From Neelides folsomi (taxonomy: Eukaryota > Arthropoda > Collembola > Neelipleona > Neelidae), in NCBI GenBank assembly GCA_034687125.1, contig JAQGBZ010000129.1, positions 1-64,000 on the forward strand: a stretch of DNA of 64,000 nucleotides, given 5' to 3'. How positions within the stretch are numbered: the stretch's first letter is position 1; every line of letters begins with the position of its first letter. Both the position numbers and the translations under genes were made by a program. Below the pieces are notes generated by a model that was given only the letters and a program-made list of their open reading frames with translations, was not told where the DNA came from and did no database searches. Of the stretch, positions 5,172-8,315 are shown piece after piece.

Positions 5172-6460
5172 ATGTCTCTTCTCTCACCAATTTTAAGACA
5201 CTTTCTCTCCAAAATAATATTAATCAATTCTGCATCAAAGTCTTTTTCAACGCGTAAAAAGTGAAATTAAATTTTATTTTCCAAATTAAATTCATTTGTC
5301 TTGCCAAATATGGTAATATCAATAAAAACTTTTTTTTCTTATTCACTAAATAGGCACGGCTTTAAAAGGCAGAGAGTTTGTTTTGACTGAAAAGGTAGGA
5401 GAGAGGAAGAATGTCGGTCTTATTACATTGAACAAGCCAAAATCTTTAAATATACTTAGTGATGCTCTCATGAGAGACTTGAGTGATGCCATTGATGAAT
5501 TAGAAGCTGATGAAGAAATCGGAACTCTTGTTCTTACTGGAAATGGAAAAGCCTTTGCAGCTGGTAAAATTATTCTTTTTGTATTTTAAAAACATATTAG
5601 GTTAATAACCGTTAATATGTAATCTTTCACTACTTTTAAGGTGCGGACATCAAGGAAATGCAGAATCTCAATTTTGCAAAAGTATACAGAGGAAGTTTCT
5701 TAACTCATTGGCTTCGAATTTCTGAATGCACAAAGCCGATTATTGCTGCTGTGAATGGATATGCCGTAAGATACACACATAATTACAATATTAAAATATA
5801 AGTTGGGAATATGACAATAATACTGTATACGAATTTAACAATTTCAATTCTAGCTGGGAGGAGGTTGCGAAATTGCCATGATGTGCGATATCATTTATGC
5901 TTCGGAGAAAGCCATATTTGGCCAACCTGAAATTCTTCTTGGAACAATCCCTGGTGCAGGAGGATCAAAGGATCGTCCGAGCGGCAGGGAAATCAAAAGC
6001 AATGGAGTTGTGTCTTGCAGCAGGTCGAATATCGGCTGTGGAAGCGGAGAAGATCGGACTTGTTTCTCGTGTTCTCCCTCCTGACACGCTCCTCCCCGAA
6101 ACACTTAATTTGGCAGAAAAGATTGCCAAAAATTCAAAGATCACTAATGACATTTGCAAAGAAGCACTCAACAATGGTAATTATTATTTTACCCTGTTAT
6201 TTATAATTAGTTAAAGTAGTTGTAAGTAGATAAAAATCCTATAAAATTAAACTAACAGAATAAAAGATGATTTATGCATAAAAAATATTGAATTGTTTTT
6301 TACTATCTTATTCATTTGATTTTTAGCTTATGAGATGACATTGAAAGAAGGTCTTCACTTTGAAAGACGTCTCTTCCATTCAACGTTCGCAACAGAAGAT
6401 AGAAAGGAAGGAATGGATGCTTTTGTTGAAAAACGCGCTGCTAAATTCCAGGACAAGTGA
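5172..6460 (+). pseudogene. ECHS1: Enoyl-CoA hydratase, mitochondrial, copy 1, disrupted by a 2-base deletion
   Basis: First of two tandem copies of short-chain enoyl-CoA hydratase (beta-oxidation, matrix). Exons 5172-5253, 5354-5563, 5641-5765, 5854-6176 and 6327-6460 mirror those of copy 2. Exon 4 is 323 nt instead of 325: at about 5961-5963 two bases are missing in the glycine-rich GAGGTQR segment just after the second catalytic Glu. The frame then shifts and stops at 6082-6084. Downstream, the original frame is still open and protein-like, with mostly synonymous or conservative differences from copy 2, and all splice sites are intact. So the lesion is recent, or is a sequencing error. The encoded product would lose roughly the last 110 residues, including the oligomerisation helices. 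Confidence 0.8.
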
Positions 6461-7044
6461 ACGTGCAAAAAATTGAATTTTTCGGAATTTCAATCAAAAC
6501 ATTATGACCTTAATGCACATAAAATATTTGTCTCTATGTACAAGGTACACTTTTGGACTTGGAATTAAGTTTAAACTGAAGATTAAAGATTTTTCTAGTC
6601 AACAAATGGCTTTCATTTAATCAACGATATTAATTATTCATAATGACAATAACACACAAACCAATACCCGAAATAGTATTTAAAACTATTTCCATTAAAT
6701 TTACTTTCAACCAAACAAAACTTAACCATGTATGTATATTGCATTTTATGCAATTAAGCATAATGAGACTTTCATGATATTCTATAGAATCCTAAATTTT
6801 GCCTTGCACTTGATCCTTGCACTTGTACTCGGAATTCGGCTTAAAAGCACGTCAGTCGTAGTCACTTTCCTCATTCCTCCACTTCCTCAGGTTCGTCTAA
6901 CATAATCATTGTCAATTATCTTTATTTAACTAAATGTATTATATTATAAATTATTGTACAGTTACCAAAAAAATTTAATGCTATAAAGCGTTATCTAATT
7001 TGCTGTCATTTGTTTAATCCAGAACTTTACATAACGTGGTTGAA
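6461..7044. other. Spacer between the two enoyl-CoA hydratase copies
   Basis: This spacer holds the 3' region of copy 1 and the promoter of copy 2. Part of it repeats the sequence upstream of copy 1, and the 3' flank after 6460 resembles that after 8315 (both share the ACAAATGGCTTTCATTTAAT motif), so the duplicated unit includes both flanks. Confidence 0.7.
6761..6860 (+). promoter_or_regulatory. Duplicated upstream segment with arthropod-type initiator, copy 2
   Basis: Diverged copy of the 4919-5003 segment, again ending in AAAAGCACGTCAGTCGTA with a TCAGTC initiator match about 190 bases before the start codon. A short insertion (extra CTTGCACTTGAT-like repeat) separates the two halves compared with copy 1. 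Confidence 0.4.
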
Positions 7045-8315
7045 ATGTCTCTTCTCTCACCAATTTTGAGAAACTTCCTCTCTAAAACAATATTAATCAA
7101 TTCTGCATCAAAGTCTTTTTCCACGAGTATACTGAATCGAAATATTACTTTTCACATTAAATAATTGTCTTACCAAATAATGTCACTAATCAAAACTTTT
7201 TCTTATCCACTAAATAGCGACAGCTCTAAAAGGCAGAGAGTTTGTTTTGACTGAAAAGGTTGGAGAGAAGAAGAATGTCGGTCTTATTACATTGAACCGG
7301 CCAAAAGCATTAAATGCGCTTTGTGATGCTCTCATGAGAGACTTGAGCGATGCCATTGATGAATTAGAAGCTGATGAAGAAATCGGAACTCTTGTTCTTA
7401 CTGGAAATGGAAAAGCTTTTGCAGCTGGTAAAATTATTTATTATTTTTATCTTTTAAAGACATATTAGCTTATGTAATCTTTCATCACTTTCAAGGTGCG
7501 GACATCAAGGAAATGCAGAATCTCAATTTTGCAAAAGTATACAGAGGAAGTTTCTTAACTCATTGGCTTCGAATTTCTGAATGCACAAAGCCGATTATTG
7601 CTGCTGTGAATGGATATGCCGTAAGATACACACATAATTACAATATTAAAATATAAGTTGGGAATATGACAATAATACTGTATACGAATTTAACAATTTC
7701 AATTCTAGCTGGGAGGAGGTTGCGAAATTGCCATGATGTGCGATATCATTTATGCTTCGGAGAAAGCCATATTTGGCCAACCTGAAATTCTTCTTGGAAC
7801 AATCCCTGGTGCAGGCGGAACTCAAAGGATCATCCGCACAGCTGGGAAATCCAAAGCAATGGAGATGTGTCTTGCAGGAGGTCAAATATCAGCTGTGGAA
7901 GCCGAGAAAATGGGACTTGTTTCTCGTGTCCTCTCTCCTGACACGCTCCTCCCCGAAACACTTAATTTGGCAGAAAAGATTGCCAAAAATTCAAAGATCA
8001 CAAATGCCATTTGTAAAGAAGCAATCAACAGCGGTAATTTTTATTTTACCTATGTATTTATAATATCATAAAAATGCCTATTAATATACATAAGTACCAA
8101 CATACAAAATACGAATTTTTCATGTAATCTATTAGAAAATATTGAGTTGTTATTCTACTATCTTATTCATTTGATTTTTAGCTTATGAGATGACATTGAA
8201 AGAAGGTCTTCACTTTGAAAGACGTCTCTTCCATTCAACGTTCGCAACAGAAGATAGAAAGGAAGGAATGGATGCTTTCGTTGGAAAACGCGCAGCTAAA
8301 TTCCAGGATAAATGA
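7045..8315 (+). CDS. ECHS1: Enoyl-CoA hydratase, short chain, mitochondrial, copy 2, 5 exons, 291 aa
   Basis: Hydrates trans-2-enoyl-CoA in the second step of matrix beta-oxidation and in valine catabolism. Exons 7045-7126, 7218-7427, 7496-7620, 7709-8033 and 8182-8315 sum to 876 nt. A serine/leucine-rich presequence without acidic residues precedes the crotonase fold. The oxyanion-hole motif AAGADIKEM spans the exon 2/3 junction. The catalytic Glu pair is at about 145 ([11 protein letters not shown]) and 165 (FGQPEILLG), followed by the intact GAGGTQR loop. The C terminus carries the family's FEMTL-like helix (here YEMTLKEG), [17 protein letters not shown] segment and [11 protein letters not shown] end. 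Length fits the family (human 290). This is the functional member of the tandem pair. Confidence 0.93.

Follow-up and report, generated by a model that had tools for sequence, protein, structure and literature searches.

Two predicted mitochondrial enoyl-CoA hydratase genes stand head to tail in the 64,000-nt stretch of Neelides folsomi DNA analyzed here (the window). They share a 323-nt tract without a single difference, a run that shuffling of the differences at gene silent sites did not reproduce, and in this assembly the reading frame of the first copy is broken. We consider it very probable that an ancient tandem duplication, a recent interlocus gene conversion of about 0.3 kb and an independent, late deletion (or an assembly error in its place) together account for this arrangement. 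In this scenario, an old head-to-tail duplication of a 1.8-kb unit carrying the gene would have been followed by divergence of the copies to about 20% at silent sites. Recently, ordinary interlocus gene conversion would have overwritten a stretch of about 0.3 kb that starts at the end of intron 2 and reaches the middle of exon 4, most likely with the intact copy 2 as donor and copy 1 as acceptor. For most of its history copy 1 would have been maintained as a coding gene before losing its frame through a two-base deletion, which most likely arose independently and survived just outside the converted stretch, or else is an assembly error.

Organization and identity of the gene pair

Self-BLAST of the window and gene modeling delimited the following features.

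4833..6653, + strand: duplicate unit 1 (self-BLAST), comprising copy 1 with about 340 nt of 5' flank and about 190 nt of 3' flank
6670..8514, + strand: duplicate unit 2 (self-BLAST), starting 16 nt downstream of unit 1
5172..6460, + strand: copy 1, predicted ECHS1-type enoyl-CoA hydratase gene (gene model, GT-AG introns), exon 4 frame broken
5172-5253, 5354-5563, 5641-5765, 5854-6176 and 6327-6460, + strand: exons of copy 1 (gene model)
7045..8315, + strand: copy 2, predicted intact ECHS1-type gene, 291 aa (gene model, PF00378, PDB match)
7045-7126, 7218-7427, 7496-7620, 7709-8033 and 8182-8315, + strand: exons of copy 2 (gene model)

The two units are arranged head to tail and are 84% identical over 1900 alignment columns (self-BLAST). 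Both genes have five exons and share their intron positions. A stretch of 33 nt upstream of copy 2 (6861-6893), in the putative promoter region, is missing from copy 1 (at 5003). When the 75-Mb assembly of 840 contigs was searched at the DNA level with copy 1, only the two tandem places were matched among the best candidates scored. A protein search of the assembly returned, besides the pair, nine matches of 23-46% identity on six other contigs, and these are other members of the crotonase superfamily.

Copy 2 covers the full PF00378 domain (profile positions 2-251 of 251, E 7.8e-87), while copy 1 as assembled matches just positions 3-137. The best of 23 PDB sequences matching copy 2 at E ≤ 1e-40 is 9rgq, ‘Enoyl-CoA hydratase, mitochondrial’ (E 7.4e-104). 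None of the NCBIfam models, which are made for prokaryotes, exceeded its own cut-off among the 25 matches listed. Both copies contain the motifs GGGCE and FGQPE, whose glutamates we take to be the two catalytic glutamates of enoyl-CoA hydratase, and both motifs lie within the identical tract. Judged by these similarities, the pair is predicted to encode a mitochondrial enoyl-CoA hydratase of the ECHS1 type, an animal enzyme of fat oxidation belonging to the crotonase superfamily.

A second, older tandem pair with crotonase-family matches is present on contig C113 (146000-152000), where positions 1495-2224 of the locus repeat at 3897-4617 with about 65% identity. This pair was considered as a control and rejected, since halves that are just 65% identical are too old to show tracts. 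Two further features of the window were recorded. One is an unbroken frame of 1182 codons for a myosin tail at 20200-23748 on the - strand (PF01576, 1146.8 bits). The other is a bantam microRNA precursor at 19196-19276 on the + strand (RF00727, 63.7 bits against a gathering score of 61); nothing else in the window matches Rfam at gathering score. Bantam occurs in arthropods and other protostomes, and the match points to such a host.

An identical tract within a diverged pair

Alignment of the two units revealed one long run of identical columns.

5638..5960, + strand: identical tract in copy 1, the candidate conversion tract (323 identical columns)
7493..7815, + strand: identical tract in copy 2 (the same 323 columns)

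The tract opens with the final 3 bases of intron 2 and takes in all of exon 3 (125 nt) and intron 3 (88 nt) before it ends 107 nt into exon 4. The initial annotation had described an identical block from about 5641 to 5961, within a few bases of these ends, flanked by divergence in exons 1 and 2, the 3' part of exon 4 and introns 1, 2 and 4. Counts of differences per aligned base agree with this description. On the 5' side they amount to 7/82 in exon 1, 20/91 in intron 1, 16/210 in exon 2 and 8/64 in intron 2; within the tract they are 0/125 in exon 3, 0/88 in intron 3 and 0/107 in exon 4 up to 5960; on the 3' side they rise again to 22/216 in the rest of exon 4, 41/146 in intron 4 and 5/134 in exon 5. 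Outside the tract, dS is 0.22 and dN/dS is 0.21, codon 177, which lacks two bases in copy 1, being left out of all codon counts. The check named in the initial annotation, a plot of identity in 20-column windows, gave abrupt boundaries at the main run.

For statistical evaluation, silent sites were defined as 4-fold and 2-fold third positions together with introns without splice-site bases. Inside the tract none of 138 such sites differs, compared with 90 of 439 (about 20%) outside (Fisher P 2.8e-12). When the differences were shuffled in 20000 trials, a run as long as the observed one was obtained in 0/20000 for the silent sites of the gene, and likewise in 0/20000 when the flanks were added and when 4-fold and intron sites were used. 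In this first test, which left out 6 donor and 16 acceptor bases per intron as well as gapped columns, the run (148 sites, from 5602) is slightly longer than the tract, because the omitted acceptor bases of intron 2 hold differences. In a retest omitting just GT and AG, the run coincides exactly with the 157 sites of the tract and is again reached in 0/20000 shuffles. The result is less extreme for coding silent sites alone, for which 133/20000 shuffles reach the 72 tract sites and 81/20000 reach the 75-site run of the first test.

The region thus combines an excess of silent and intron identity with abrupt edges in an otherwise diverged pair, as expected of a conversion tract. Recent gene conversion, proposed for this block in the initial annotation, is well supported by the silent-site contrast, the identity of intron 3 and the permutations. 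Conversion as the process is what we infer from a comparison of two sequences only, and its direction and the order of tract and deletion are likewise our reading. Silent divergence inside the tract has a 95% upper bound of 2.2%, about one tenth of that outside, which would place homogenization within roughly the last tenth of the history of the pair, if rates were even.

It is extremely unlikely that selection, acting without any conversion, holds intron 3 and the flanking exon parts identical, for instance as a splicing or regulatory element. The protein is indeed at its most conserved in the part encoded by the tract, but none of the 138 silent sites has changed, whether in exons or in the intron, the edges are sharp on both sides, and an Rfam search returned no family at gathering score in the tract.

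Direction of conversion

To assign donor and acceptor, 80 bacterial relatives and one mammalian enzyme served as references for the residues at which the copies differ. A site was regarded as conserved if 90% or more of the bacteria carry its residue and the mammalian enzyme shares it; residues 1-43 and 175-177 were left out. At such sites, departures confined to copy 1 occur at residues 55, 58, 61 and 196, all outside the tract, and none is confined to copy 2; both copies depart at 180, 195, 223 and 245. Lowering the threshold to 70% adds one departure on each side (copy 1 at 192, copy 2 at 215). At the 90% threshold, departures exclusive to copy 1 affect 4 of 58 conserved sites outside the tract and none of the 37 within it (one-sided Fisher P 0.13). 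None of the 37 conserved sites of the tract departs at all, and the tract being the most conserved part of the protein weakens the test.

Altogether 19 residues differ between the copies. At the 16 that were compared with the mammalian enzyme (residues 10, 15 and 28 being left out), the mammalian residue is kept by copy 2 at seven, by copy 1 at four (183, 198, 215 and 282) and by neither at five. Conversion likely proceeded from copy 2 to copy 1, a direction that is statistically weak (P 0.13).

Separately, a record titled Bacillus subtilis SK6B4 contains an enoyl-CoA hydratase that matches the query at 56%, as close as the alphaproteobacterial ones; this record is possibly mislabelled or mixed.

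The broken reading frame of copy 1

Beyond the tract, the frame of copy 1 is interrupted by a single lesion.

Between 5964 and 5965, + strand: two-base deletion in copy 1, corresponding to 7820-7821 of copy 2; the sole exonic gap event

As a result, the assembled frame shifts in exon 4 and reaches a stop after 215 residues. The downstream frame of copy 1 contains no other stop ahead of the normal end. With this disabled frame, copy 1 would be classed as a pseudogene in the assembled sequence. A cryptic intron that restores the frame is unlikely: within exon 4 there are 17 candidate frame-restoring GT-AG pairs at least 40 nt apart (counted without splice-site scoring), and each would take out 46 nt or more around the conserved loop.

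Of the 22 gap events between the units, 21 are noncoding and one is exonic. The noncoding rate predicts 15.8 events for the 642 exon bases outside the tract, compared with the one observed. Copy 1 alone departs at four conserved residues. The dN/dS of 0.21 together with this shortage of exonic gaps suggests that copy 1 was maintained for most of its life, and such long constraint implies that the lesion is either late or not real. The alignment reveals neither a flanking repeat nor microhomology at the deleted bases, nor do they lie in a homopolymer, so that neither slippage nor a homopolymer error is an obvious cause.

The whole pattern might instead be an artefact, with the copies collapsed or mis-polished over the shared block and the deletion marking the point where the assembler left the repeat. 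A faulty join would indeed be expected to leave small insertion or deletion errors where an exact repeat ends, and the genome search, which finds two places only, offers no second haplotype for comparison. We nevertheless regard this explanation as unlikely. The deleted dinucleotide is outside any homopolymer, the 1182-codon myosin frame in the same window is unbroken, and the count of N is 0 in the window and in 16 of 16 other stretches (147,001 bases), a small sample that is silent on the sequencing method.

Relation of the deletion to the tract edge

In the initial annotation the identical block was said to end exactly at the deletion, and imprecise repair at the tract edge was offered as its cause. 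The two do adjoin, the deletion lying 4 nt past the last identical base; the first difference beyond the tract, however, is a substitution at 5961 (A/C). Over the 216 nt of exon 4 past the edge there are 23 difference events (22 substitutions and one deletion), among which the deletion ranks second from the edge, a position expected by chance in about 2/23, or about 9%. Expressed as distance, a random exon base outside the tract falls within 4 nt of the edge in about 4/642 cases by simple arithmetic. The rank view is the fairer one. By definition the visible edge adjoins the first difference to survive, which is not the true end of the tract. Any earlier deletion inside the tract, moreover, would have been erased by the intact donor, so that one that survives would have to sit outside. 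For these reasons we treat the link between deletion and tract as unproven, and the proposed origin in imprecise repair is unsupported.

A single repair event might still have produced both features: a break in copy 1 would have been repaired with copy 2 as template for about 320 nt, after which imprecise joining of the new strand to the other end would have left the substitution at 5961 and the deletion, so that conversion itself killed the gene. The short distance to the tract, with its chance of about 4/642, fits such an event, as does the lack of a flanking repeat or microhomology, which resembles blunt end joining; moreover, insertions and deletions of 1-4 nt are typical of classical end joining (PMC3962482). 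The rank of second among 23 events (about 9%), on the other hand, needs no such event, the true tract end is hidden and may lie upstream, and the coincidence was singled out after looking. On balance we hold this single-event origin to be quite improbable. If it were true, tract and null mutation would share the same birthday, and the pair would be a natural case of conversion killing, not rescuing, a duplicate. We retain an independent deletion, or an assembly error, as the preferred reading.

Other identical runs

Shorter identical runs occur elsewhere in the alignment.

6301..6423 (= 8156-8278), + strand: second identical run, 123 nt, covering 26 nt of the end of intron 4 and most of exon 5
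6598..6650 (= 8459-8511), + strand: identical run of 53 nt in the 3' flank (alignment)

Two more lie at 5485-5552 (68 nt) and 6078-6144 (67 nt); like the run in the 3' flank, they are additional to those named in the initial annotation. The run in the 3' flank was reached in 121/20000 permutations with the flanks included and the main tract removed. The second run was matched, outside the main tract, in 110/20000 shuffles on all silent sites of the gene, in 1402/20000 on 4-fold and intron sites and in 4993/20000 on coding silent sites. As its support varies with site class, it is not firmly beyond chance, and its candidacy as an independent conversion tract was not upheld. The near-identical block that had been noted in the last exon (6304-6419 versus 8158-8273) exists as a run, but a separate tract is unproven; the run may reflect a conversion that was older or smaller, or it may have arisen by chance.

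Comparison with known gene conversion

Mean tract lengths in Drosophila are given as 352-441 bp at rosy and 476 bp on the X (PMC3284332), and a break-repair assay in this genus yielded a mean of 471 bp (PMC3962482). At 323 nt, the putative tract described here resembles these measurements in length. The second of these papers also reports that 1.4% divergence cut break-induced recombination by 31.5% (PMC3962482). The present copies, at a silent divergence of about 20%, lie far above that value; conversion between them is accordingly expected to be rare, a point that weighs somewhat against it.

In the copepod Tigriopus californicus, the frameshifted copy of the GOT1Sd/GOT1Sr pair still converts with its intact partner (PMC3728101). 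Both that pair and ours are arthropod metabolic-enzyme paralogues with conversion between paralogues, inferred in our case, and one frameshifted copy, the frameshift being found there in several populations. They differ in that conversion in GOT1Sd/GOT1Sr is largely restricted to exons, the large intron being mostly unalignable, whereas here a whole small intron lies in the tract; moreover, the evidence there comes from several haplotypes and populations, and here from one assembly. Conversion among Drosophila duplicates has been described as extensive (PMC2588116). Like the present case, the duplicated blocks of Drosophila melanogaster in that study have tracts smaller than the block, with pseudogenes and frameshifts among the duplicates; unlike it, they are backed by orthologous regions in sister species, where we compare two paralogues of one genome. 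Our search of the open literature found nothing on ECHS1 gene conversion or on tandem duplication of arthropod enoyl-CoA hydratase, nor on gene conversion between mite tandem duplicates with a pseudogene and an intron.

The pair is a new instance of a familiar and well-documented process. As an instance of concerted evolution it is small and clean, involving a tandem pair of a core metabolic gene at a time close to the loss of one copy. Provided that the deletion is real and polymorphic, the two genes could be used to ask whether conversion from the intact copy can outrun decay.
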